Assembly (NCBI RefSeq): GCF_020514095.1
Contig: NZ_VTKY01000001.1
Location: 124,001 to 188,000, forward strand
Length of the DNA: 64,000 nt
Direction: 5' to 3'
Source: Synechococcus sp. MU1643
GTDB lineage: Bacteria; Cyanobacteriota; Cyanobacteriia; PCC-6307; Cyanobiaceae
Below, piece after piece: positions 54,462-64,000 of the stretch (the stretch's first letter is position 1; each line of letters starts with the position of its first letter). The notes under the pieces were generated by a model. It worked only from the letters and a program-made list of their open reading frames with translations, was not told where the DNA came from and searched no databases. The translations under genes were made by a program, and so were the position numbers.

Positions 54462-55040
54462 TCAGGGGTTCAGCGGCTGCTCTCGCCAGAGCGTGTCCGC
54501 GCGCCAAAGCGTGCGTTGATGGGGATGGGGGCCGAGGTTGAGCCGCTCGACAGTGTCCACGTGAAGCCTCAGCACCACGAAATGCTTTGGCAGCGGCGCA
54601 GTCTCAGCGAGTTGTTCGGGGAATGCCCCCGTGGGGTCTAGCGGATCTGCCGGGGTGGGCCACCCCCAGACAGCCCGTCCCGTATCCGAGAGCTTTTGCC
54701 AGCGCTGCTGGCAAAGCTCAGGTTGCTCGGAGGCAGTGATCAGCTTCACCTTCCCCTGTAGCCGGTACTGCTGGCGGGCTTTTGGGAACAACCAGCACAG
54801 TTCAGAAGCTCCATCGTTGGCGAGTTCCTTCACCTTCTCGCTGCGCTGATCGCTGAACAGTTCGAGCTGTTTGGCTCCGGCCCAGCCGCGGAACACCAGG
54901 GTCCGCACCCGGGGTGCGCCATCCAGTCCCGTTGTGGCCAGTTGCACCCAGCGGGCGGCTACGGAGGGTCCCTCCCGCTGCATGGCCGCGCGCAGCAGAG
55001 GTCTCCATGGGGGTATTGCCTCAGAGATTCCCTCAGTCAT
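54462..55040 (-). CDS. Pyridoxamine 5'-phosphate oxidase family protein
   Basis: FMN-binding split-barrel protein of 192 residues. Landmarks: VQLATTGLDGAPRVRTLVFRGW, ELFSDQRSEKVKEL, CWLFPKARQQYRLQG, and a C-terminal RTLWRADTLWREQPLNP. These match the cyanobacterial PPOX-type (alr4036/Npun_F5749-like) group. The substrate is unknown. ATG at 55040 overlaps the stop of the upstream HDAC-like gene as ATGA, so the two are translated together. Confidence 0.85.
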   Translation of the reverse strand: MTEGISEAIPPWRPLLRAAMQREGPSVAARWVQLATTGLDGAPRVRTLVFRGWAGAKQLELFSDQRSEKVKELANDGASELCWLFPKARQQYRLQGKVKLITASEQPELCQQRWQKLSDTGRAVWGWPTPADPLDPTGAFPEQLAETAPLPKHFVVLRLHVDTVERLNLGPHPHQRTLWRADTLWREQPLNP

Positions 55041-55954
55041 AGAAGGTCAAACAAGCGAGCCTGCTCGGCAGCAGCTCGAACCACGATGGCGTGGCGCTGC
55101 ACCAGGGGCGTGAGGGTGTCATAGCCGCCACCTATCACCGTTGCGGTTGGAATCCTCCGGCGCAGACAGGCATCGAGCACGAGCCGATCTCGCATGTTCA
55201 ATCCCGCATCGCTGAGGGAGAGTCGGCCGAGCCGATCATCGCGATGGGGATCGACGCCTGCGTTGAAGAACACCAAATCCGGCGCGATGGTGTCCAAGGC
55301 ATCGGGCAACCGGTCGGCAATGGCGGCGAGATAGTCGTCATCGCTGGTGCCATCGGCGAGGGGGACGTCGAGATCTCCTTGCACTTTGCGCAAGGGGAAA
55401 TTGCTGGCGGCGTGCACAGAAAGAGTGGTCACCCTTGGGTCGTGTTGAAAGCAGGCTGCTGAACCATCCCCTTGGTGCACATCGAGATCCACGATCAGAA
55501 TTCGCCGCACCTCTCCTTTACCCAGCAACACCCGTGCGGCGACAGCACAGTCATTGAAGATGCAGAAGCCGCTCCCGAAGCCGGGGTGGGCATGGTGGGT
55601 GCCACCCGCCAGATGACAGGCCAAGCCCCGCTCGAGAGCTAGCCGTGCCGTCAATAGGGTGCCGCCCACGGCGAGCCAGGTGCGCTGCACCAAAGGGCGC
55701 GTGGCTGGAAGCCCGATGCGACGTTGCTCGGGACGGGTCAGGCGATCACGGCTGAAGGCTTCGTGATACGAGCGGGGATGAACGCTTTCCAGATCCTTGC
55801 GCGCGATGCTCAAGGGCCGATGCACCTGGTCGGCCTGCACCACTCCCTGCTCCAGCAGTAGTTGATGCAGCAGCCGGAACTTCGCCATCGGAAAGCGATG
55901 GGTGCTCGGCAGCGGCGCGGAGTAGTGCGGGTGGTAAACGACTGGAAGCGGCAA
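55037..55954 (-). CDS. Histone-deacetylase-family amidohydrolase
   Basis: Protein of 305 residues of the arginase/deacetylase fold. Zn-enzyme landmarks: LAGGTHHAHPGFGSGFCIFND (paired His near residues 121-122) and ILIVDLDVHQGDGSAACF (near residues 153-169, metal Asp and His). Near the end is ATVIGGGYD. Bacterial members hydrolyse acetylated polyamines or other amides. ATG at 55954, only 40 bases from the old stop of the island's target gene (TGA at 55995-55997), implying that before insertion all three were in one operon. Confidence 0.88.
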   Translation of the reverse strand: MPLPVVYHPHYSAPLPSTHRFPMAKFRLLHQLLLEQGVVQADQVHRPLSIARKDLESVHPRSYHEAFSRDRLTRPEQRRIGLPATRPLVQRTWLAVGGTLLTARLALERGLACHLAGGTHHAHPGFGSGFCIFNDCAVAARVLLGKGEVRRILIVDLDVHQGDGSAACFQHDPRVTTLSVHAASNFPLRKVQGDLDVPLADGTSDDDYLAAIADRLPDALDTIAPDLVFFNAGVDPHRDDRLGRLSLSDAGLNMRDRLVLDACLRRRIPTATVIGGGYDTLTPLVQRHAIVVRAAAEQARLFDLL

Positions 55955-55998
55955 GGGGCTGTCTCACCCGGGATGGCTCCGCTCCATTCAAGGGTCAG

Positions 55999-56019
55999 GC
56001 AGGCTGCTGGTGCAGCAAC
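55999..56019 (+). repeat. Left attachment-site repeat (attL core)
   Basis: 21-bp sequence beginning GCAGGCTGCTGG and ending GTGCAGCAAC, identical to 63930-63950. On the minus strand it codes LLHQQPA and is followed by the in-frame TGA at 55995-55997, the original stop of the target gene. Confidence 0.92.
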
Positions 56020-56079
56020 ATACCTAATGACCCAGATCCCAGTTTAGACCAAAGTTTTTAAGAATCACTCAGATCGTAT

Positions 56080-56106
56080 GTGCCAAAGCGGTGCCAAATG
56101 GCGTCA
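56080..56106 (+). repeat. Left arm-type repeat (GTGCCAAA doublet)
   Basis: GTGCCAAA occurs twice, 10-11 bases apart, followed by GGCGTCA. The same arrangement, with one mismatch and one indel, is at 63812-63837. Direct copies of short motifs inside each att end are typical integrase arm-binding sites (inference). Confidence 0.7.
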
Positions 56107-56356
56107 GAAGATTCGATCCCTTTGGCACGACTTTCTCCCGACACGTTGCGCCGTGCAAACAACACCAGGTACCGTCAAATTACCGAGAGATAAACGCACA
56201 AGGTTCTGCCTTGCCGTTCTCCTGCCAGGGTCTCCCTGGTCCCTACCTGACATCACCTCATGTGGTGTCGGCGCGTCGGAGGTGACGCGGACCCCTTTTC
56301 AGGTGTTGCACGACAGGCGGTTCTGTTCCCCCCCCCCTTCACTGGAAGCTCAGAAC

Positions 56357-56551
56357 TTGCCGCGTCCGTCTCGCCATCATCACGAATCCAGAACCACCAT
56401 CCGGTGGAATGGAGTCACCATCCGTATCCCGAAGAAGATTCAGGATTTGGCCCTGGAGCGGGACTGCATTCCAACAGGAGTGCTGCTCTATTCAAAGGAA
56501 GCAGTCGCGTTGCTCGACGAAGTAGCTGCCAAGGCGAAGGGATCTAACTGA
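56357..56551 (+). CDS. Small protein at the left island end
   Basis: Protein of about 64 residues. Core: TTIRWNGVTIRIPKKIQDLALERDCIPTGVLLYSKEAVALLDEV (landmarks WNGVTIRIPKK and LLYSKEAV). The start is uncertain: a TTG at 56357 is used, a GTG at 56303 and an ATG at 56078 are in frame but lie before or across a ten-C run and the arm sites, so they are less likely coding. No family recognised. The stop is 9 bases before the HTH gene; probably the first gene of a three-gene unit. Confidence 0.5.
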   Translation: MPRPSRHHHESRTTIRWNGVTIRIPKKIQDLALERDCIPTGVLLYSKEAVALLDEVAAKAKGSN

Positions 56552-56560
56552 CCCCTATCG

Positions 56561-56863
56561 ATGGATCCCGCCCAGCAATGGGTGCATGAGCGAGAAGCTG
56601 CGGAGCTTCTGGCGTTAAAGCACGGCACCCTCAGAACCATGCGTCGTGATCGCAGGCTCCTGCCAGGAGATCACTACATCTTTGCCACTGGCACCGCTGG
56701 TGGCCCCGTCGTCTACAACATCACGGCCATCCGTGAATCAATGGCGCAGCGCACCAAAGATCTGGTGACGGCTGAAGCCAAGCGTCGTGCTGCTTCTAAG
56801 AAGGTAAAGCAGGATTCCATTGAGACTTTTAGCGATGCCCAGCATGTGAGGGCAGGGTCATGA
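56561..56863 (+). CDS. HTH/excisionase-like protein
   Basis: Protein of 100 residues. An N-terminal helix-turn-helix-like part (WVHEREAAELLALKHGTLRTMRRDRRLLPGDHYIF; landmarks EAAELLALKHGTLRTMRRD) is followed by a beta-turn (GGPVVYNITAI). A basic helical tail (KRRAASKKVK) is present. The style resembles MerR/AlpA-like excisionases. The position next to one end, with the integrase at the other, would place both side by side in a circular form, supporting a role in excision. ATG at 56561; it overlaps the next ORF as ATGA. Confidence 0.6.
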   Translation: MDPAQQWVHEREAAELLALKHGTLRTMRRDRRLLPGDHYIFATGTAGGPVVYNITAIRESMAQRTKDLVTAEAKRRAASKKVKQDSIETFSDAQHVRAGS

Positions 56864-57018
56864 GGGATCAGCGAGACGAAAGAACGTCTTTTCAAACCTT
56901 GATTGAGATGGGGAACTTGCCTCCTGATGCGCTCCTCTCGCCTTCAAAAATGAATGAGGGTTTCTATTCCAAGACTCTTCAAACAGCGCGCCAAACTTCC
57001 GGGGGGACATTTGTCTGA
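56860..57018 (+). CDS. 52-residue protein coupled to the HTH gene
   Basis: ATG at 56860 overlaps the HTH stop (ATGA). Polar protein of 52 residues with DERTSFQTLIEMGNLPPDALL and KMNEGFYSKTL (landmarks). No family recognised. Overlap and codon style support a real coupled gene rather than chance. Confidence 0.5.
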   Translation: MRDQRDERTSFQTLIEMGNLPPDALLSPSKMNEGFYSKTLQTARQTSGGTFV

Positions 57019-57115
57019 CGGGGGGATGTTTTGTCGGTAGATGGATAGCGACTCATTTGCTACCACCTTGGCGTGATGCCGGACTATCGCACACAGGATG
57101 AGGAAGATCCTCTAC

Positions 57116-57292
57116 TCAATATCCGCCAATTCTCAGAACCATCTCAAGAGCACTCAAGCCAAAGATGAAGGTGCCGCCAAGCAGCGCAAGTTCCTTCTTG
57201 GATGAAGCCATGGGAAGGAGGGCAGAGCCCATGATGAGGGATGCGAAGAATATTAAGGGATTCTGTAATTCCAAATAAGTGTCTATCGGCAC
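57116..57292 (-). CDS. 58-residue membrane protein
   Basis: Minus-strand frame with GTG start at 57292 and a GGGAG ribosome site about ten bases upstream. Two hydrophobic helices: NPLIFFASLIMGSALLPMA and LALLGGTFIFGLSALEMVL. A short Lys-containing loop (SSKKE) separates them. Too short for usual gene cut-offs, but composition and ribosome site are convincing. A palindrome lies about 40 bases upstream of the start. Confidence 0.6.
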   Translation of the reverse strand: MPIDTYLELQNPLIFFASLIMGSALLPMASSKKELALLGGTFIFGLSALEMVLRIGGY

Positions 57293-57330
57293 AGAAGCCA
57301 GTCTCCCACTAGATGTAACAGAAACTTCAT

Positions 57331-57348
57331 GTACTTGAGTTCAAGTAC
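57331..57348. promoter_or_regulatory. Palindromic operator candidate
   Basis: GTACTTGA-GT-TCAAGTAC is a perfect 8-bp inverted repeat with a two-base spacer. It lies 39 bases upstream of the 58-residue membrane-protein start. A direct repeat ACTTCATGTA flanks it (57324-57333 and 57367-57376). It could bind a dimeric regulator such as the island's LuxR-type protein (inference). Confidence 0.45.
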
Positions 57349-57563
57349 CTACAGATATCGATACACACTTCATGTAACTTTATTTATCTGGTGAGAGTAA
57401 ATCCAGGAGTGTTGTCGCTCGATACACCTCAAGTAGGTTCTGAACTCATGGGTGTTCCTTTTGGCATCGAAAGGCTGGATAGGAACAGAGCAATGCGGGT
57501 GTCTTGAGGCATGGGCCAGACGTGACTGCCTTGAGTATTCCCCGCTGTTGCGCTGGTGATGCA

Positions 57564-57617
57564 GTGGTAACGCAAGACAGGCGTTTTGGCCTGTTATGTG
57601 CCATGTCTCGTTACCGC
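57564..57617. other. Nested hairpin, possible structured RNA
   Basis: Outer stem GTGGTAACG/CGTTACCGC (9 bp, one wobble) encloses an inner hairpin ACAGGC/GCCTGT with loop GTTTTG. No T-run follows. The stretch 57349-57759 lacks a convincing protein, so this may be an RNA element or leader of the gene at 57760. Confidence 0.45.
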
Positions 57618-57759
57618 CCAAAGCCAGACGAACACTCGGAGAAACCAGGTACATAGCAGCGAACTTCTCGTTTCGCGTGTTCGGTCCCTTGGCGGTTTTC
57701 ACCGTCACCGCCATGTCTGTTGGCTGGCGATGGTTATTGCGTCTTCAATTCAGCCTCAA

Positions 57760-57924
57760 ATGTCTACCGAAGTTCGTAACTGGACCATCGTCGCCAAGGC
57801 AATGGAAGCAGCTGGTGCCACATCAAGTCAGATGTATGTCCGCGCCAAAGCATTGGCACAAGGCAAGCTCGACCCCATGCCCACCAGCGCCCCTGAAGCT
57901 CCATACAGCATTTCTGCAGCCTGA
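57760..57924 (+). CDS. 54-residue conserved-looking protein
   Basis: ATG at 57760. Sequence landmarks: EVRNWTIVAKAMEAAGATSSQMYVRAKALAQGKLDPMPTS; helical, ending in a Pro-rich tail (PMPTSAPEAPYS). No family assigned. Frames extending upstream to 57586 cross the hairpin and are probably not coding. Confidence 0.55.
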   Translation: MSTEVRNWTIVAKAMEAAGATSSQMYVRAKALAQGKLDPMPTSAPEAPYSISAA

Positions 57925-57989
57925 GTCATCACCGACTGATCAGCAGCCTTGCCATATCAGCAGGGCTGCAACTCCTTTATGTATCTCTA

Positions 57990-58214
57990 ATGACCAATCA
58001 TCACTTGTCAGTTGAGCAAAGGTTTCATTTGGAAGCAGCCTTCAGAGAGGTCGATGGCTGCGAGGACATTGAAAAGCTCCGTGCTCTTACGAAGCAGATC
58101 ATTACTGCACAGGAGAATGAAAAGGCATTTGCTCGCGAAGCGATGCAGCAGATCCGCAAGGAGATGGAGGCATCTGCTCAGCAGCGGTTCGGATTCAACT
58201 GGGGCCAGAAGTAA
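57990..58214 (+). CDS. Small helical protein, cyanophage/island style
   Basis: Protein of 74 residues: SVEQRFHLEAAFREVDGCEDIEKLRALTKQIITAQENEKAF (landmarks FHLEAAFREVDGCEDIEKL and LTKQII), then a basic helix. All-helical, no Cys motif beyond a single one. The 'LExAFREVDxCxDIExL' style is reminiscent of small proteins in marine cyanobacterial islands and phages, from memory and not verified. ATG at 57990. Confidence 0.55.
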   Translation: MTNHHLSVEQRFHLEAAFREVDGCEDIEKLRALTKQIITAQENEKAFAREAMQQIRKEMEASAQQRFGFNWGQK

Positions 58215-58273
58215 AAGCTTGGATTCACTTGATCAAGTCAGTGACTTTCGCCAGCTTCCTTGGTGGTCCATGT

Positions 58274-58295
58274 AAAAAAAACCGCCTTGCGACGG
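58274..58295 (-). terminator. Minus-strand terminator
   Basis: Read on the minus strand, CCGTC-GCAA-GGCGG forms a five-base-pair hairpin followed by T8. It is 44 bases beyond the stop of the 51-residue gene, which it probably ends. Confidence 0.6.
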
Positions 58296-58338
58296 GGTGA
58301 TGCTGGTAATGATTGTCTGGAAAAAGGTTTTACTTAAC

Positions 58339-58494
58339 TTATTTAGAACAGTATTCAGGCACTTCACGGAAGGGGGGATGTCTGCCCTTATAGCATTCAA
58401 AAAATATACTTAGGACGCCAAACATCATTACGCCAATCAATGTCAACTGACCGGTAAAGGCAAGCCTTTTCAACCATACACGTGGCTTCTGCAT
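58339..58494 (-). CDS. 51-residue membrane protein
   Basis: ATG at 58494. A basic N-terminus (KPRVWLKR) leads into one hydrophobic helix (GQLTLIGVMMFGVLSIFF), then a polar tail with two Cys (ECYKGRHPPFREVPEYC). A terminator follows. Below usual length cut-offs, but the positive-inside layout is typical of a real single-helix protein. No family recognised. Confidence 0.55.
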   Translation of the reverse strand: MQKPRVWLKRLAFTGQLTLIGVMMFGVLSIFFECYKGRHPPFREVPEYCSK

Positions 58495-58659
58495 GAATCG
58501 AGCTTAGATCCAGAATTGGAAGCTGCAAACCTTGAGGTGTAAAAGAAAAATCTCGCCCCGAAAGCACACCATTGAAAGGTCATCAGGAAATTGCGTCACC
58601 ATTCCGAGGGATTTATTTAGCTGTTTTTATTCCCTATCTGGTTGGAGGGAGCTCAGAGA

Positions 58660-58989
58660 TTAGGAATGCGAAAACATAAGCCAAATAGCAAATATCAACA
58701 AAGGCAAATCAAGCAGTATCCAGTTGCCAATCCTTGTCTCCTCATATGTTTTGCAAAAAGGTATCTTAATTCTCCATCCACCAGCCTTTTCAATCCAATA
58801 ATTATGCTCTCTTTGCTTGTATCGAATCTCTCTGAAGAAAGTTAAGTATTTTGTTTCTCGTATTCTTACCCCCAGCCTACGGTCCAGCACTGCGTCTCTC
58901 CACTCATAGCTTTCATCTTCGATAAATTTTCCTTTTTTGAAGCGACACCATGACCAGTGATGGATGGTGGCGAAGAAGTAGAAATTCAT
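58660..58989 (-). CDS. AT-rich hypothetical protein with C-terminal helix
   Basis: Protein of 109 residues, rich in Trp, Tyr, Phe and Arg: TIHHWSWCRFKKGKF, YEWRDAVLDRRLGVRIRETKYLTFFREIRYK, WRIKIPF. A C-terminal hydrophobic helix (WILLDLPLLIFAIWLMF) suggests a membrane anchor. The DNA is much more AT-rich than the core chromosome, consistent with recent acquisition. ATG at 58989. No family recognised. Confidence 0.55.
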   Translation of the reverse strand: MNFYFFATIHHWSWCRFKKGKFIEDESYEWRDAVLDRRLGVRIRETKYLTFFREIRYKQREHNYWIEKAGGWRIKIPFCKTYEETRIGNWILLDLPLLIFAIWLMFSHS

Positions 58990-59034
58990 GTTGCTGGTTG
59001 CAGCTGAAGTCTATTCATTGCATAAATTTATCTA

Positions 59035-59181
59035 TTATTTCCAAGAAAGCCATAGTCCTTGTGCATCTCCGTTCCAGCTGAGTGATATTTCCGATGGCTC
59101 TAATCCCTCTTTTGGGTAAATCGTCCTCGCCAGACTGGAGTAGTCGCCCAGATCCCAGTGGTCAGCGCACTGCAGGCTCAA
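59035..59181 (-). CDS. 48-residue frame, possible gene fragment
   Basis: TTG start at 59181. Protein-like sequence: CADHWDLGDYSSLARTIY, KEGLEPSEISLSWNGDAQGLWLSW. The composition looks coding, but the start is weak. It may be a short gene or the remnant of a longer one. Confidence 0.35.
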   Translation of the reverse strand: MSLQCADHWDLGDYSSLARTIYPKEGLEPSEISLSWNGDAQGLWLSWK

Positions 59182-59208
59182 AAGGAGTCACACGTTGAAT
59201 TGCTCTAA

Positions 59209-59367
59209 TCCGCCATCCGATGGGAGGGAGTTCGCGCTCAGTGGTTCGCTCGCACCAATGACTGGCAACAGGTCGAGGACTGCCTCGCCCGTGAACGTCA
59301 CCTCGAAATAACCCTCGATCAAGCGCGGCGCGATGCAGCGTTCGCAGCCGAACACTGCCCCGGTTGA
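59209..59367 (+). pseudogene. Coding-like fragment without a start
   Basis: Between two stops, 52 codons read WEGVRAQWFARTNDWQQVE, DCLARERHLEITLDQARRDAAF. The amphipathic, charged pattern is protein-like, but there is no ATG, GTG or TTG in frame. It overlaps the next frame. Probably the remnant of a disrupted gene. Confidence 0.35.
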
Positions 59368-59605
59368 ACCCGTGGCGACTCATCGCCCCAAACCCCGTCG
59401 CCGGAACCCAGCACGGGCCGAGATCGAGAACGACCTCCTCGAACAGCCCCGCTGGTCATGCCTCCGCCAGCAGCAACGCCTTCAGGCGCAACATCACACC
59501 CCAGAGCAGAACGCTGCTGATCGCCGCAGATGCCGGGCCCTAGTCGAGGGCGGCTTCGGCGCCGACGCAGCCTTCATGGCCCGGTGGCAACGGATTGGCG
59601 GCTGA
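59333..59605 (+). CDS. Basic hypothetical protein, doubtful
   Basis: Protein of 90 residues, Arg/Gln/Ala-rich: HRPKPRRRNPARAEIENDL, PRWSCLRQQQRLQAQHHTPEQNAADRRRC. A GTG near residue 16 is an alternative start, 10 bases after the stop of the fragment upstream. High GC content and low complexity make it uncertain. It might once have been joined to that fragment. Confidence 0.35.
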   Translation: MQRSQPNTAPVEPVATHRPKPRRRNPARAEIENDLLEQPRWSCLRQQQRLQAQHHTPEQNAADRRRCRALVEGGFGADAAFMARWQRIGG

Positions 59606-59661
59606 TCAACCCCCGCCGAAGGCAGGGGCTGCAAAAGCACTTTTCAAGGCGTGAGCCTGAT

Positions 59662-59976
59662 TCAGGCGCCCATCATTTCGAACAACTCCTTGTGGCATGC
59701 ACAGGCTTCCTCATCGGTGAAAGCAGGCTGCATGTCGAATTCAACGCCGAACATCGCGCGCCAAGGAGCGAAGTGCTTGAACAGAACCATGCTGCTTTCC
59801 GCTTTGCAGATCACTACGCCACTGCCGGTTTGAGGACAGTGCGTGCGGCTGATCAACTCGAAGCCGTCAATGTGATCACCTTCAGCGCCGCTAGCCATGT
59901 ACTCAATCAACTTGGCGTAGGCAGCCTTTTGCCCTTCGATCTCGGGGAACTGCCAAGTGACGTTGTAGAGCTGCAT
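59662..59976 (-). CDS. DUF3303-like protein
   Basis: Protein of 104 residues: LYNVTWQFPEIEGQKAAYAKLIEYM, GFELISRTHCPQTGSGVVICKAESSMVLFKHFAPWRAMFGVEFDMQPAF (landmarks HCPQTGSGVVICKA and APWRAMFGVEF). The ferredoxin-like alpha/beta style matches the small DUF3303 family. Function unknown. ATG at 59976. Located downstream of the DUF3764 gene on the same strand; both may be in one transcript. Confidence 0.6.
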   Translation of the reverse strand: MQLYNVTWQFPEIEGQKAAYAKLIEYMASGAEGDHIDGFELISRTHCPQTGSGVVICKAESSMVLFKHFAPWRAMFGVEFDMQPAFTDEEACACHKELFEMMGA

Positions 59977-60044
59977 CTGATCTCAAAAGTGAAGTCGTCT
60001 TCTAGCACTGAAATCTTGAACACCATGCAGCGCAGACGACCTCA

Positions 60045-60069
60045 GCCAGCCTCAGGCGCCCAGCCCATC
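60045..60069 (-). repeat. GWAPEAG tail module, copy 1
   Basis: Minus strand reads MGWAPEAG-stop. Preceded by a tiny frame starting ATG 24 bases downstream of the DUF3764 stop. One of three copies in 720 bases. Confidence 0.6.
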
Positions 60070-60092
60070 TCGTTCATGCTCTTTAAGGGCTG

Positions 60093-60371
60093 TCACGCAA
60101 GCCAACGGGTGATCACGGTGCCTTCATAGACATGACCAGAAGCTTCAACAATCGGTTTGGTTTCTGGGTTCGTGAAGATGTTGTAGAGGACGTCTTCGGG
60201 TCCTTGAAACATCACTGTCGCTCTTTTGGGGTCGTCCTTGAAGACACCAATAAAGAAGGTCTTTACTCCCATCTCGGCAAACATAGCTTGCTGCTCAGGA
60301 GCATTCATATGTGCGCGATATTCCTCAAACGTGTTGCTGAGCTTGAAGTCCAGAACAGTTGTCTCAGTCAT
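60093..60371 (-). CDS. DUF3764 family protein (island copy)
   Basis: Protein of 92 residues: TVLDFKLSNTFEEYRAHM, GVFKDDPKRATVMFQGPEDVLYNIF, VEASGHVYEGTVI. It shares the KDDP and ASGHV landmarks with the chromosomal copy at 49847-50113 but is clearly diverged. ATG at 60371 lies inside the end of the 57-residue frame upstream (8-base overlap), so translation may be coupled. Function unknown. Confidence 0.7.
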   Translation of the reverse strand: MTETTVLDFKLSNTFEEYRAHMNAPEQQAMFAEMGVKTFFIGVFKDDPKRATVMFQGPEDVLYNIFTNPETKPIVEASGHVYEGTVITRWLA

Positions 60372-60537
60372 GGCTAGGACACGTGGAATCGCGACAGATC
60401 ACTTTTAGCCAGCCTCTGGTGCCCAGCCCACTTCCTTTTGCCACGTCGGTGCCCAGAGCTTGCATCGCTTCTTCAGGTGTCGATACTGCTGATAGAAGCT
60501 CACTGAAGCTCAGCTGATGGGAGGGTATGGGAACCAT
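60364..60537 (-). CDS. 57-residue frame, probably frameshifted
   Basis: ATG at 60537. It reads SFSELLSAVSTPEEAMQALGTDVAK, then changes character. Removing one A from the A4 run at 60436-60439 would join it to EVGWAPEAG-stop, the tail found in two other copies. The unshifted form would have 43 residues. It overlaps the DUF3764 start by 8 bases. The N-terminal part loosely recalls Nif11-type leader peptides (unproven). Confidence 0.45.
   Translation of the reverse strand: MVPIPSHQLSFSELLSAVSTPEEAMQALGTDVAKGSGLGTRGWLKVICRDSTCPSHD
60408..60438 (-). repeat. GWAPEAG tail module, copy 2
   Basis: Minus strand, third frame, reads KEVGWAPEAG-stop. It lies out of frame within the 57-residue ORF. Confidence 0.65.
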
Positions 60538-60735
60538 GGTGGGTTTGGAGGGCAGGGGCTCTCTCTTTCCTGCGACCCAGCAGTTGAAGGATGCAGACGC
60601 GACGTTTTATTCATAGGGACGGGGGTAATCACATTCATAGTTGTGGCCGGGCTTGCCTGCTGGCTTGTCCTGTCGGGTAGGTGGACTGTGATGCTGATCA
60701 AACTTGAGCAGAAGATTCGTTCGTTACGTCGCTAA
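60517..60735 (+). CDS. Small Gly-rich membrane protein
   Basis: Protein of 72 residues. Gly-rich N-terminus (GGYGNHGGFGGQGLSLSCDP), then one hydrophobic helix (FIGTGVITFIVVAGLACWLVL) and a basic tail (KLEQKIRSLRR). Two nearby Cys (LSCDPAVEGC) precede the helix. ATG at 60517; its 5' end overlaps, in antisense, the start of the 57-residue frame by 21 bases. No family recognised. Confidence 0.5.
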   Translation: MGGYGNHGGFGGQGLSLSCDPAVEGCRRDVLFIGTGVITFIVVAGLACWLVLSGRWTVMLIKLEQKIRSLRR

Positions 60736-60765
60736 CAAGCTTCAGGAGCCCAGCCCACTTCCTTT
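60736..60765 (-). repeat. GWAPEAG tail module, copy 3
   Basis: Minus strand reads EKEVGWAPEAC-stop, with no start in frame. The DNA shares about 20 contiguous bases with copy 2 and lies directly after the stop of the Gly-rich gene. Confidence 0.65.
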
Positions 60766-60928
60766 TCCAGGTGGGTCGTTTTCTATCTGCCGTGAGTCTT
60801 CCCCGCTCGCCAGACTTCGCCCCATGGCGAATAAGGACCGCAGCAACCACGAACCGCCCCAGAAGCCTGGTGGTGAGGGCTGGCTCTACAGCGAGCAATA
60901 GCAGAAGCTCTGTCACTTCAAGCCCGCG

Positions 60929-61165
60929 ATGGCCACCGTGCATGCGCAGTGGGTTAAAGGCGCTCTTGCCTCCATCGCCGAGCTGACTGACAAAGAACGA
61001 GCGGTGCTGACTCAAGTAGGCAGAGGACTCGGCAACAGCGATATAGCCGAGGAGCTTTTCATCTCAGAGGAGACATGCAAAAGCCACCTTCGGGCAATCC
61101 GTCAAAAGGTTGGCGAGACAGACAGAGTGAAACTTGCTCTCATTGCCATCAGAGCAGGCATTTAA
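60929..61165 (+). CDS. LuxR-type HTH protein
   Basis: Protein of 78 residues consisting of a GerE/LuxR DNA-binding domain without a receiver: ELTDKERAVLTQVGRGLGNSDIAEELFISEETCKSHLRAIRQKVGETDRVKLALIA (landmarks LTDKERAVL, NSDIAEELFISEETCKSHL). This is the complete four-helix HTH. A single-domain regulator inside the element could control its genes; targets unknown. ATG at 60929. Confidence 0.85.
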   Translation: MATVHAQWVKGALASIAELTDKERAVLTQVGRGLGNSDIAEELFISEETCKSHLRAIRQKVGETDRVKLALIAIRAGI

Positions 61166-61295
61166 TTCACCTGAACACATTGATCGGCCCTCTACGAGAG
61201 GCTCCAGCAACGCCTTCTCATTAGCCAATTAAGGCTGAGGCCAAGGATGTCAGCGGTAGGGATTCGGACCTTGGAACACCCAACGTGATTGACGT

Positions 61296-61976
61296 TTAAT
61301 CCTTTGCCCTTTGCTTCTCCAACAAGAGCTTGGCCTTGTCGTAGCGCTTTTGAAAACCAGCTTTCAGTCCCGAGTGCTGGGCCATCAGCTGCGCACGGGC
61401 TCCATCCTTTCTCTTGGTTTCATAAACCCGATCACACAGCTGCCAATAAAGCTGAATGATTCCGATCTCGCGGGCGTAATCCTTCTGCTTGCGCAGGATG
61501 ATCGACACCCGCTTGAAGTAGGTAGGTGCAGGGAACCACCGGTTGATCTGAGCCGACTCCATCTCCGCCTTGCAACAGGCCAGCATGAGATCAAGATCGT
61601 GTTTGTTCTCCGGGGCCTCTTGGAGAACCTCCCAAGTCTGCTTTCCATCGACAAGCGTCTGAGGAAACATCATTCCGAGGATCTCACCGGAGGCCTTGCC
61701 AGCGCACTCGGGTCCGAAATACCAATCGTGATCAGACTTGACGGTCTCTACCAGAGGCGGTTCAGACGGCTTGGGGGGCTTTGCTGAAAGCTCTGAAGCC
61801 TCAGGTATCGGTGTCTCAGAACCCTCTGCTTTGGGGTCTGAGGAACGAGGCTCACGGAAGACAGGCGTCCTTATGTGCCTCGTGCTTTTGGCCTTCTGAA
61901 CTTCTCGATTGAAGACCACCTTGGCGACAACAAAAGCAATCGCCAGGACGGCCAAAAGGAAGCCAAGCAATTCCAT
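61296..61976 (-). CDS. Membrane-anchored hypothetical protein
   Basis: Protein of 226 residues. An N-terminal helix (LLGFLLAVLAIAFVVAKVVF) is followed by a Pro/Ser/Glu-rich linker and a helical cytosolic domain: DHDWYFGPECAGKASGEILGMMFPQTL, KHDLDLMLACCKAEMESAQINRWFPAPTYFKRVSIILRKQKDYAREI (landmarks WYFGPECAGKASG, NRWFPAPTYFKRVSIILRKQKDY). No family recognised. ATG at 61976; an ATG at 61991 is in frame. Confidence 0.65.
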   Translation of the reverse strand: MELLGFLLAVLAIAFVVAKVVFNREVQKAKSTRHIRTPVFREPRSSDPKAEGSETPIPEASELSAKPPKPSEPPLVETVKSDHDWYFGPECAGKASGEILGMMFPQTLVDGKQTWEVLQEAPENKHDLDLMLACCKAEMESAQINRWFPAPTYFKRVSIILRKQKDYAREIGIIQLYWQLCDRVYETKRKDGARAQLMAQHSGLKAGFQKRYDKAKLLLEKQRAKD

Positions 61977-61991
61977 GCCTGAACAGACCAT

Positions 61992-62306
61992 GGGTGTTAA
62001 CAGTCTGGCCGAGGTGACAGTTCATGCCCTTGGAAAGATGTGACTCACTAGGTCGGCGTTGACCTAGTTGATGACGACTGTATCGACGTCAGCGACCTGG
62101 AACAGGGTCGACACCTTTGGGTTCCTGGCACTATGACCCGACTTTTAGTGCCCACCGAAATTTCTTACTGGTACTTGGATGCTTCGATAGGGCAATGCGA
62201 AACAGCCATTTGTCGCATGATTGCTGCTACAGCGCTTTGATTGTTGAATGCGCGATAGACAGCGAGCTGTTTGCTCAATTCGTGGCATTCCTTTTGTTGG
62301 GAGTCC
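61992..62306. other. Island intergenic region
   Basis: 315 bases. Open frames (for example 62117-62314 plus) look non-coding. It may contain the promoters of the diverging genes on both sides. Confidence 0.4.
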
Positions 62307-62402
62307 ATGAGTAAACCGTTGACATGGAAATCATGGCCTCAGCAAGCATGGCGTGATTGTGCCAAGTGCCACAAAATTACATTGCATGAATCGAAGATCT
62401 GA
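62307..62402 (+). CDS. 31-residue CxxC protein
   Basis: ATG at 62307 with GGGAG a few bases upstream. Trp-rich start (LTWKSWPQQAWRD) and CAKCHK, a possible metal-binding pair. Very short, but the ribosome site and composition support it. No family recognised. Confidence 0.4.
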   Translation: MSKPLTWKSWPQQAWRDCAKCHKITLHESKI

Positions 62403-62504
62403 ACGACCAGCCTAAGTATTAATACTCCTAAAAGTTTTATGTGATCAATGATGCAGAGGTAGTGCAATCAGCCTATTAAGGTTTTATTGATATAGGAGAT
62501 GGCT

Positions 62505-62588
62505 ATGGGATTGACTATTCCAGCGCTCTCAATCGGGGTCGTTATGTATCTATTTTTTCACTTTTTGCTGCGAGGCGTGTTCGGCTAA
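62505..62588 (+). CDS. 27-residue membrane peptide
   Basis: ATG at 62505 with AGGAG six bases upstream. Almost wholly hydrophobic: LTIPALSIGVVMYLFFHFLL, ending RGVFG. A single-helix peptide, directly before the convergent integrase end. Function unknown. Confidence 0.45.
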   Translation: MGLTIPALSIGVVMYLFFHFLLRGVFG

Positions 62589-62610
62589 TTAATGAAGCCT
62601 GGCTAATCAG

Positions 62611-63804
62611 TCAGACGTTGACCGCTGCCACGAGGTCTGCCGTCGCGTTTGGCTTGAACCGGGCGTAGCTCTTCAGGTGCACTTCGATGGTGTGCCCCAT
62701 TGCCTCGCTGATGTTGGCGATGGGGATATTGGCAGCGTGCATCCCCTTGGCGTAGCGATGCCGGAATGAATAGGGGGTGAGCTGCTCACCCTGTCGCTTG
62801 GCGTCTTCACGCATCGACAACCAAACCGTCCGCCGGCGCAGATAACGACTTAATGCCTCGCTGCCGTTGCCTTCACTGTTCAACGGCGGCAATTTCTCGC
62901 CCACCTGCAATCGGCTTTGCAGGTTCCAGTTGATCGCAGACCCATCTGCATCGCGCACCAACAAGGGGTGCAGCCTGCGCGGTTGCGTCTTGGCTCCCTT
63001 CGTTCCCCCCATCGACTTCTGATAAATCGTCCAGAGTTCTGCCCTGTTTGCTCCGTCCTTAATCCGGAGATACCGCAACTCCTCAGGGCGCAGGCCGTAG
63101 ACGGAACAGAGCTGAATGGCGAACCGCCAGCGGTTGTGCTTTTCACCCTGAGGCAGGTTGTCGAGGATCTGGAGGATCTGCGCATCACTGAGGGGGTAAC
63201 CGATGCGCTTTGGCTTCAGGGTCTCTGGGAGCGTCGCAGGGGGGAAGTAAATGGGCTTTAGGTGTCCATGTTGCACCGCCCAGTTCAGGAAGCTGTAGAG
63301 CTTCTGCCGGCACATCTGGCGCATCCTTGTGCCCTGTTCCCATTGGGCCAGGCATTGCATCGCTAACGCTTCACCGTCCACTGGGGGTCGGCCTTCGAAT
63401 GCCTTGGCGCAGTTGCGCAGCACAGGCAGATAAAAGCCCTCCCAGGTCTTGTCGCCAGCGTTGGGGACGAACTCCCGGTAAGTCTCGATTAACTGGCTGA
63501 AATCCAGCTTCTGGTGACTGCTGGAGGTGTCGGCGTTTTGTGCGGCCGCGGCAAGGGTGATCTGTCCACCGTTCCAGCGCTTGAAGATCTGTTGGATGCG
63601 GGGCAACGCAAGCGCAGAACCACGCGCAGTCCACTCAAACGGGAGTGAAACAGTCCCCGCATCACGGACTACTAAGCGAATCCGGCCGCGGTTGTTGCGG
63701 ACGTACCAGCTCTCTCCGCAGGTCTCTGCGATCTGACGGCGGAAGGGCTTGATCCAGCTTTCTGTCTCAGAAACGCGGGGCAAGTGAATGAGGCCGGTTG
63801 CCAC
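62611..63804 (-). CDS. int: Tyrosine recombinase (phage-type integrase)
   Basis: Site-specific recombinase of 397 residues. A SAM-like core-binding part (QLIETYREFVPNAGDKTWEGFYLP) precedes the catalytic domain: Arg in VYGLRPEELRYLRI near residue 236, HxxR in YSFRHRYAKGMH near residue 351, and the nucleophile Tyr in HTIEVHLKSYARF near residue 381. Length and order are normal. GTG at 63804, 126 bases from the right repeat. It is the element's own integrase. Confidence 0.93.
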   Translation of the reverse strand: MATGLIHLPRVSETESWIKPFRRQIAETCGESWYVRNNRGRIRLVVRDAGTVSLPFEWTARGSALALPRIQQIFKRWNGGQITLAAAAQNADTSSSHQKLDFSQLIETYREFVPNAGDKTWEGFYLPVLRNCAKAFEGRPPVDGEALAMQCLAQWEQGTRMRQMCRQKLYSFLNWAVQHGHLKPIYFPPATLPETLKPKRIGYPLSDAQILQILDNLPQGEKHNRWRFAIQLCSVYGLRPEELRYLRIKDGANRAELWTIYQKSMGGTKGAKTQPRRLHPLLVRDADGSAINWNLQSRLQVGEKLPPLNSEGNGSEALSRYLRRRTVWLSMREDAKRQGEQLTPYSFRHRYAKGMHAANIPIANISEAMGHTIEVHLKSYARFKPNATADLVAAVNV

Positions 63805-63811
63805 CTGAAGC

Positions 63812-63837
63812 GTGCCAAAGCTGTGCCAAAGGCGTCA
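63812..63837 (+). repeat. Right arm-type repeat (GTGCCAAA doublet)
   Basis: Two GTGCCAAA motifs followed by GGCGTCA, matching 56080-56106 with one mismatch and one indel. It lies in the short gap between integrase start and right repeat. Confidence 0.7.
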
Positions 63838-63925
63838 AGCATCTGCTGACACCTGCCGACACTTGACGACGTAGTAACACTGCGAAAACTGAGTGATCGT
63901 CTGGAGAGCCCCAGTGTTGGCCTTG

Positions 63926-64000
63926 TTATGCAGGCTGCTGGTGCAGCAACCAGTCGTTGAAGCCGCTGGTGTTCAGTTCGCTGATGCAGCTCTGCAGTTT
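63926..64000 (-). CDS. C-terminus of the island's target gene (partial)
   Basis: Runs off the window. Twenty-four codons read KLQSCISELNTSGFNDWLLHQQPA and then TAA (63926-63928); I state only that the last seven (LLHQQPA) come from the att repeat. The gene's identity cannot be told from this tail. Its stop was TGA (55995-55997) before insertion and is TAA now. Confidence 0.7.
   Translation of the reverse strand, partial: KLQSCISELNTSGFNDWLLHQQPA
63930..63950 (+). repeat. Right attachment-site repeat (attR core)
   Basis: Identical to 55999-56019. It forms the last seven codons of the target gene on the minus strand. Confidence 0.92.

Follow-up and report, generated by a model that had tools for sequence, protein, structure and literature searches.

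Tycheposons, reported in Cell in 2023, are said to be islands of Prochlorococcus and other picocyanobacteria. We compared with these and other described systems a small island (the window element) at the end of a 64,000-bp stretch of the Synechococcus sp. MU1643 genome (contig NZ_VTKY01000001.1, positions 124,001 to 188,000; the whole stretch is called the window, and its genome G000). The window element is an integrase-driven, site-specific island of ordinary anatomy, located in the 3' end of a protein gene. We think it quite likely that it belongs to a family of tRNA-Pro islands and switched to a look-alike of the tRNA site in this gene, and that the window copy is a reduced, satellite-like element.

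Tycheposons are picocyanobacterial cargo islands with a tyrosine recombinase (PMC10872708, PMC11389934). The window element likewise has a tyrosine recombinase and variable cargo, and its closest relatives border a tRNA gene, but it borders a protein gene instead. The PICMI satellites of Vibrio phages are ~6 kb long, have 17-bp repeats, encode an integrase, AlpA and a primase, and lie at the end of fis (PMC10803314). They resemble the window element in being small, repeat-bounded integrase elements at the end of a protein gene, and differ in their target and in the replication gene that the window copy lacks; the two are set apart here by description, not by recombinase sequence. In HE-PICI, one integrase clade serves several targets, the integrase of the tRNA-Phe group is very similar to that of a protein site, and attP has a doubled motif on each side of its centre (PMC10111431). 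A single integrase clade with several targets, including a tRNA and a protein gene, and a doubled attP-side motif are also found here; however, HE-PICI are enterobacterial and target prophage late genes, whereas in our case the change is from tRNA-Pro to a host gene and the look-alike core is identified. ICEBs1 has 5-bp inverted repeats around a 7-bp crossover region and integrates at secondary chromosomal sites, from which it excises poorly, possibly forming heteroduplex circles, so that these sites are close to dead ends (PMC3715440). Arms around a 7-bp spacer and integration away from the primary site are common to both, but the window element has the same spacer at both ends and its lineage occurs in several species. 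Finally, other tyrosine integrases of variable islands in Prochlorococcus and Synechococcus use tRNA-Phe and tRNA-Cys (PMC10187409), which are different tRNA targets from the one found here; this family is again set apart by its description.

Among the matches listed in a literature search (titles and starts of abstracts), none concerned the element, its target gene or a picocyanobacterial tRNA-Pro integrase family, and tRNA-Pro was mentioned only for Sinorhizobium; the original tycheposon work may describe the element. To our knowledge, target change by site-specific integrases is poorly documented. The value of the present case would lie in a documented target change within one family and genus, and in a link to satellite-like genes. 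Because old-site and new-site relatives, empty sites, a remnant that records the crossover, and apparent spread across species all occur in one genus, target change should be directly testable by core swaps, at sites that are 12 kb apart.

Boundaries, target gene and empty sites

The window element is bounded by two copies of the direct repeat GCAGGCTGCTGGTGCAGCAAC without a mismatch (Table 1). It spans 7,952 bp with both copies included and 7,931 bp from start to start, which agrees with the perfect 21-bp repeats and the discrete element of about 7.95 kb in the original prediction, made from the sequence of the window. Its G+C content is 53.1%, compared to 60.0% for window positions 1-55998, where 7,952-bp segments taken every 200 bp range from 58.3% to 61.6%. 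An integrase had been predicted next to one repeat, and the open reading frame (ORF) at this place matches Phage_integrase; matching arm-type repeats had been predicted as well and were located near both ends, with the form GTGCCAAAGC(G/T)GTGCCAAA. No structural phage or conjugation genes had been visible, and none was found among the element ORFs scanned, nor was a relaxase (Pfam, 9 of 10 proteins; PHROGs, 10 of 10; NCBIfam, 6 of 8). PADLOC defence models matched none of the six window proteins scanned, Rfam gave no match within 55000-64000, and no tRNA was found in L002, a 20-kb locus around the element. The same elements are recorded in Synechococcus AG-670-B23, AG-679-D13, AG-670-F04 and MED650, which suggests a marine Synechococcus as host.

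The target is a minus-strand ORF of 83 codons, which crosses the end of the window and matches no Pfam or NCBIfam family under the thresholds applied. Translated in its frame, each repeat copy closes with ...LLHQQPA*; the stop codon is TAA towards the island and TGA towards the chromosome. The 83-codon frame and its C-terminus are kept, in accord with a predicted insertion into the C-terminal coding region that preserves the frame. A search of 59 genomes from 26 genera, among them the window genome and 34 genomes of its genus in all, recovered the target gene in 24, every one of them in this genus. Twelve of the 24 carry a full-length or nearly full-length histone-deacetylase-like (HDAC-like) gene 35-97 bp after the target, so that the uninterrupted junction expected of relatives with an empty site does occur, and in one further genome the gene lies at 332 bp. 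The window flanks, joined at one repeat copy, align over all 1,221 bp with G010 (93.7%) and G031 (93.6%). Since the joined flanks align through the junction, the repeats coincide with the border of synteny and do not lie off it.

Five of the 24 sites are occupied by the integrase family (window, G003, G009, G014, and G029). The element of G009 is 17.1 kb long and has GGTTGCTGCACCAGCAG at both ends, and the HDAC-side core of G014 is no longer intact. The HDAC-like gene starts 1.3-1.4 kb from the target in G020 and G023, and was not seen within the stretch examined beside the target in G017 and G022. The 19-base core of the target occurs in 10 of the 34 genomes of the genus and in one more at an unrelated place (G030, L116 4572-4590), where there was no match to the query proteins.

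G001 and G033 carry a different insert with a duplicated junction at the target/HDAC site. The G001 repeats (L054 6058-6353 and 11989-12284; 5.9-kb spacing) form a 296-bp, 100% identical duplication, and those of G033 (L055 4494-4671 and 5914-6091; 1.4-kb spacing) a 178-bp, 94% identical one; both duplications end at HDAC codon 23/24. These inserts were rejected as members of the family, because they have these duplications rather than the core repeat and no integrase relative.

The target gene points into the integrase on the same strand, ~120 bp apart; in tRNA islands, the tRNA piece beside the integrase faces away from it. Transcripts of the target gene may run on into the integrase. A scan of L002 8500-10400 detected four terminator-like sites (1.8 expected), none of them between target and integrase, and no promoter-like site.

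The integrase family and its probable change of target

We searched for the integrase in the 59 genomes and then in 300 of its family, and checked the upstream DNA where a locus was given. All 24 tree rows that are neither protein-site integrases nor outgroup adjoin the 3' half of tRNA-Pro(TGG), cut in the anticodon loop, as recognised by the T-arm pattern (19 rows), a tRNA half (G029a), reading (G172), or further upstream (G196, G094, and G059). These integrases are 42-82% identical to that of the window. Moreover, G005, G006, G023, and G026 have a full tRNA-Pro and a relative of the excisionase-like (xis) gene at the far end, as expected of a tRNA island. The protein gene is used by only four integrase-bearing elements (window, G003, G009, and G014) and one integrase-less remnant (G029). 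A protein-gene target had already been predicted to be unusual for a marine cyanobacterial island, and this claim is strengthened by the finding that the integrase's own family is a tRNA-Pro family. In the window genome, tRNA-Pro is intact and lies 12.4 kb from the target; the stretches around this tRNA gene that were searched contain no relative of the integrase. The distance is ~12 kb in G031 and G010 as well. The chance of a random place falling within 12.4 kb of the tRNA is ~1.2%, computed after the fact.

When a distant outgroup was included in the tree, the integrases of the window, G003, and G014 grouped together (100/100) inside the tRNA-Pro clade of the genus (100/99). The G014 integrase gene (L014) is a pseudogene, and a second tree that left it out again nested the window and G003 integrases. 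Truncated or broken integrases (L013, L015, L016), near-copies (L086-L087), distant ones (L019, L021-L023), matches without a given locus, and loci found later were left out. The nesting of the window integrase in the tRNA-Pro clade implies that the target changed from tRNA-Pro to the protein gene at least once, which is well supported by the tree.

The two kinds of target site are also alike. In the direction of the integrase, the core reads TTGCTCCCAAAGCA(A/G) at the tRNA and TTGCTGCACCAGCAG at the protein gene. An ungapped alignment with the G variant gives 11 identical bases out of 15, with the differences in the central five, and both sites fit TTGCT-N5-AGCAR. The integrase-side arm of the window element can be aligned with the arms of tRNA-type elements as well (56-66% over 160-161 bases). 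The 2.07-Mb genome contains the TTGCT-N5-AGCAR pattern at 28 distinct places. Three of these are accounted for by the tRNA and the two att copies, and the chance that one of the other 25 would lie inside the 21-bp repeat is ~1e-4. The protein site thus looks like the tRNA anticodon stem-loop, and the recombinase arms appear to have been kept while the crossover region changed between the two sites. The two cores of the G029 remnant differ at one base, with CAGCAG on the target side and, as in the empty sites of G010, G031, and G005, CAACAG on the HDAC side; strand exchange therefore took place left of the differing base. The window, G003, and G009 elements each have an identical 15-bp core at both ends, so that excision, at least in the window and G003, should avoid the mismatch problem of the ICEBs1 type.

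We propose that the tyrosine recombinase would recombine a circular attP with the last codons of the 83-codon gene and would replace these codons by an equivalent end, so that the target gene stays intact. The recombinase would stem from a family of picocyanobacterial integrases whose insertion site is the anticodon stem-loop of tRNA-Pro(TGG), and its lineage would have moved to a look-alike in the protein gene, where the paired arms TTGC(T).../...(A)GCAR are retained around a 7-bp spacer; the exact cleavage bases are inferred. By adaptation of attP, the element's own spacer would now match the new site, and integration and excision, the latter perhaps with the helix-turn-helix (HTH) protein encoded near the far end, should therefore again be exact. 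The island would be capable of moving and may have spread in this way.

Several observations weigh against this proposal. The TTGCTN5AGCAR pattern is over-common in the genome (31 rows compared to 11 for the reversed pattern), and the likeness of the cores is short (11 of 15, or 10 if the tRNA ends GCAA) and was spotted post hoc. The best 14-mer of the repeat agrees with the tRNA core at 10 of 14 bases, as do 107 of 104,021 local positions; by this weaker measure, the chance for the 8 offsets in the repeat is ~0.8%, and both this estimate and that of 1e-4 were computed after the similarity had been noticed. Of the residues shared by the integrases of the window, G003, and G009, none was missing from every tRNA-Pro integrase (0 observed; null mean 0.25), and an impression from the alignment that the protein-site integrases share specificity residues was dropped. 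The predicted excisionase-like gene stands in part: related ORFs lie near the same, far end in other elements, but excisionase models match it weakly. The xis ends of the window and G003 elements diverge (arm, 63% identical; xis, 78%), which implies that these elements are mosaics. Lastly, a copy of the tRNA half-site near the integrase start is not recognisable in the window element. Among 26 elements entered and 25 scored (G018 has no core), the 21 tRNA-Pro elements have copies agreeing at 9-12 of 12 positions (shuffle p 0-0.53; p <=0.05 in 10 of the 21), and the protein-site elements gave p >=0.95 (G000, G003, and G014) and 0.43 (G009).

The half-site copy lies 13-62 bp before the start of the integrase alignment (for example in L070, L071, and L088, with L072 as an exception); it is inverted in Synechococcus-type rows and mostly direct in the others.

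The G009 integrase lies outside the tRNA-Pro clade of the genus, on an unresolved deep fork. Constraining the four protein-site integrases to one clade was rejected (p-AU 0.0051), as was the constraint on three without the G014 pseudogene (p 0.0293). Perhaps there were two moves to the protein gene, a count that depends on the one long row of G009. We see an even chance that two lineages escaped independently to this same gene, favoured by an end that mimics the anticodon stem-loop and by a position 12 kb away from the tRNA, with the arms staying and the crossover bases being exchanged. If true, this would be a natural record of integrases overcoming the secondary-site barrier. Alternatively, and more tentatively, a single switch could have produced a protein-site attP that was shared once between the G009 and window lineages, with the integrase gene exchanged later in either direction. 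The mosaic elements, the position of G009 on its fork, and the identical 15-bp core at both ends of the window, G003, and G009 elements are consistent with such an exchange. In contrast, the rejection of one clade argues against it, as does the integrase-side arm of G009, which is 54% identical to that of the window and no closer than the tRNA-type arms are (56-66% over 160-161 bases).

The sister element and satellite-like genes

G003 carries a 12.75-kb element at the same protein site. The integrase genes of the window and G003 are 99.2% identical in DNA, compared to 92.1% for the target ORF, 92.3% for the HDAC-like gene, and 88.9% for the next gene in the flanks. We read this difference as movement of the element between the two species.

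The G003 element encodes an AAA_25 helicase (E 9e-22; 408 aa), a sodium/glutamate symporter, a response regulator, and a T5orf172 protein; one of four G003 proteins had a marginal PADLOC match (E 0.0039). The C-terminus of a 229-aa protein matches PHROG head-assembly/scaffold families (2.4e-12 and 1.7e-6) and, among phages, scaffold/capsid-assembly proteins of T7-like cyanophages (23 records, the best at E 1e-5; the 20 rows shown have 33-49% identity and cover 21-40% of the query). This scaffold-like protein was found in none of the other loci compared. A 108-aa protein belongs to phrog_34910, of unknown function, and matches five cyanophage records annotated as hypothetical (29% identity, 2e-8). 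Its P-HS2 homologue directly precedes matches to large terminase, portal, and head families, and homology and gene order together suggest a cyanophage-type small terminase. A fold search with a single-sequence model of this terminase-like protein (mean pLDDT 76) gave 53 matches at E <=10 and none at 0.001. Its relatives are encoded in two tRNA-Pro elements, those of G005 (93.5%) and G006 (77%), and G009 has a 25-aa fragment; a helicase relative (37%) occurs in a tRNA-Pro element of Prochlorococcus AG-422-M20. The connection of a picocyanobacterial integrase family with small terminase-like and scaffold-like genes suggests a way for islands to travel among oceanic cyanobacteria.

The terminase-like and scaffold-like genes have no match in the window element, which together with its helicase and regulator fragments suggests a deletion derivative. 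The window copy thus looks like a reduced form of a phage-satellite-like element, and its transfer probably depends on a helper or a relative. The possible satellite of the original prediction is therefore upheld through the G003 sister with its putative small terminase and scaffold-like genes, and not for the window copy, which lacks both and in which the helicase is reduced to its first ~50 codons.

Two other states of the window copy were weighed. A dead relic, with repeats and integrase left over and no movement, is unlikely: truncation of the helicase and response regulator and the decayed relatives in G014 and G029 would fit it, whereas the integrase ORF and both repeats are intact, the recombinase residues are present, and the integrase is nearly identical across species. 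That the window element is an active, helper-packaged phage satellite seems more doubtful still. The sister's terminase-like gene, with its P-HS2 homologue next to the large terminase, and the scaffold match to T7-like cyanophages point that way, but the window element has neither gene and a helicase of 52 codons, the fold search found nothing significant, and scans of viral contigs with the integrase alignment, the terminase-like protein, and the helicase gave no confirmed relative. Least of all do we expect the protein gene to be an old target in part of the family, with tRNA-Pro derived, as the deep branching of G009 might allow, because all other tree rows, including the deepest at 42-48% identity, are at tRNA-Pro, the target protein was found among the 59 genomes only in the window's genus, and its 19-base core in 10 of the 34 genomes of this genus.

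Features of the window element and minor observations

The integrase has residues R239, K263, R348, H371, and Y380, which we take to be the catalytic motif, with Y345 at the box-II position in place of the usual His. The coordinates of this and other features are collected in Table 1.

Table 1. Features in and beside the window element (window positions).
Feature	Positions	Strand	Evidence and relatives
HDAC-like gene, flank outside the element	55037..55954	-	Next after target in empty-site relatives
Left att repeat, 21 bp, HDAC-side end	55999..56019	.	Without mismatch
Arm-type tandem repeat, matching, other end	56080..56098	.	
Third arm word, inverted, left end	56121..56128	-	
ORF, start uncertain	56312..56551	+	45% over match to 154-aa ORF beside xis in G003 element
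Excisionase-like HTH protein, candidate directionality factor	56561..56863	+	DUF1233 0.015; phrog_539 0.0018
AAA_25 helicase remnant, 52 codons	56860..57018	+	408 aa in G003; 90% over 49 aa, then stop
Cargo ORF, 74 codons	57990..58214	+	Relative in G021, 77% identical
Cargo ORF, 109 codons, no family	58660..58989	-	Single marginal PHROG match, E 0.033
Cargo ORF, 90 codons	59333..59605	+	Relatives, 42-56%, in G003, G009, G029, G016
DUF3303 protein	59662..59976	-	
DUF3764 protein	60093..60371	-	Copies 92-99% identical in G009, G021, G029
LuxR-type HTH, C-terminal 78 codons of a response regulator	60929..61165	+	233-aa regulator in G003 element; 86% identical to its C-terminal third
231-codon protein, no family	61296..61991	-	
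Tyrosine recombinase, 397 codons, GTG start	62611..63804	-	Phage_integrase PF00589 E 9e-11; phrog_1 E 1.2e-23
Arm-type tandem repeat by integrase start, TTTGGCAC words, 11-bp period	63812..63830	.	
Target gene, 83 codons, 3' part; to ~64177 outside the window	63926..64000	-	
Right att repeat, 21 bp, integrase-side end, inside the target gene's last codons	63930..63950	.	

Tandem words of 8-10 bp with an 11-bp period occur upstream of many integrases and differ between elements. Eight elements were entered in a test of recurrence at the far end; six had their own far end, and five of these had an exact integrase-end tandem. Arm words recurred at the element's own far end in all five (G000, G003, G023, G005, and G026), with at least one 8-mer each and three of five 8-mers in G005. 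Among the five, only the sisters G000 and G003 share a word, except that one G000/G003 8-mer occurs once in G005. The sixth, G006, has an imperfect tandem from which no word was derived, and its far end, like that of the G029 neighbour, bears the integrase-end words of G022, for which there was no far end to compare; G029a paired with its neighbour's far end gave no match. By eye, the residue after a conserved W (or F) of the N-terminal domain tracks the arm word, with K accompanying TTTTGC(A/G)CAC, WW accompanying CTCACCACAC, and Y mostly accompanying TTTNGCAC. A natural arm recognition code is possible, in that the words vary among close integrases, recur at both ends of an element and seem to go with residues of the N-terminal domain (integrase ends and far ends: L062+L104, L059+L105, L063+L106, L064+L107, L002, and L050).

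Three 34-base repeats, 76-85% alike, lie at window positions 60043-60076, 60406-60439, and 60733-60766, with spacings of 363 and 327 bp, and surround the DUF3764 gene; they are perhaps the ends of related small genes or cassettes. The close copies of DUF3764 are found at L052 8173-8448, L066 5216-5491, L103 6387-7093, and L090 5540-5800, and in G029 the gene adjoins a DUF3303 gene that is 98% identical. DUF3764 thus seems to be cargo that moves between islands. G029 has several tRNA-Pro elements in tandem, and several tRNA-Pro 3' halves with integrase remnants are present in G029 and G009 (L060, L103, and L052), which suggests repeated tandem accretion at tRNA-Pro in these genomes.

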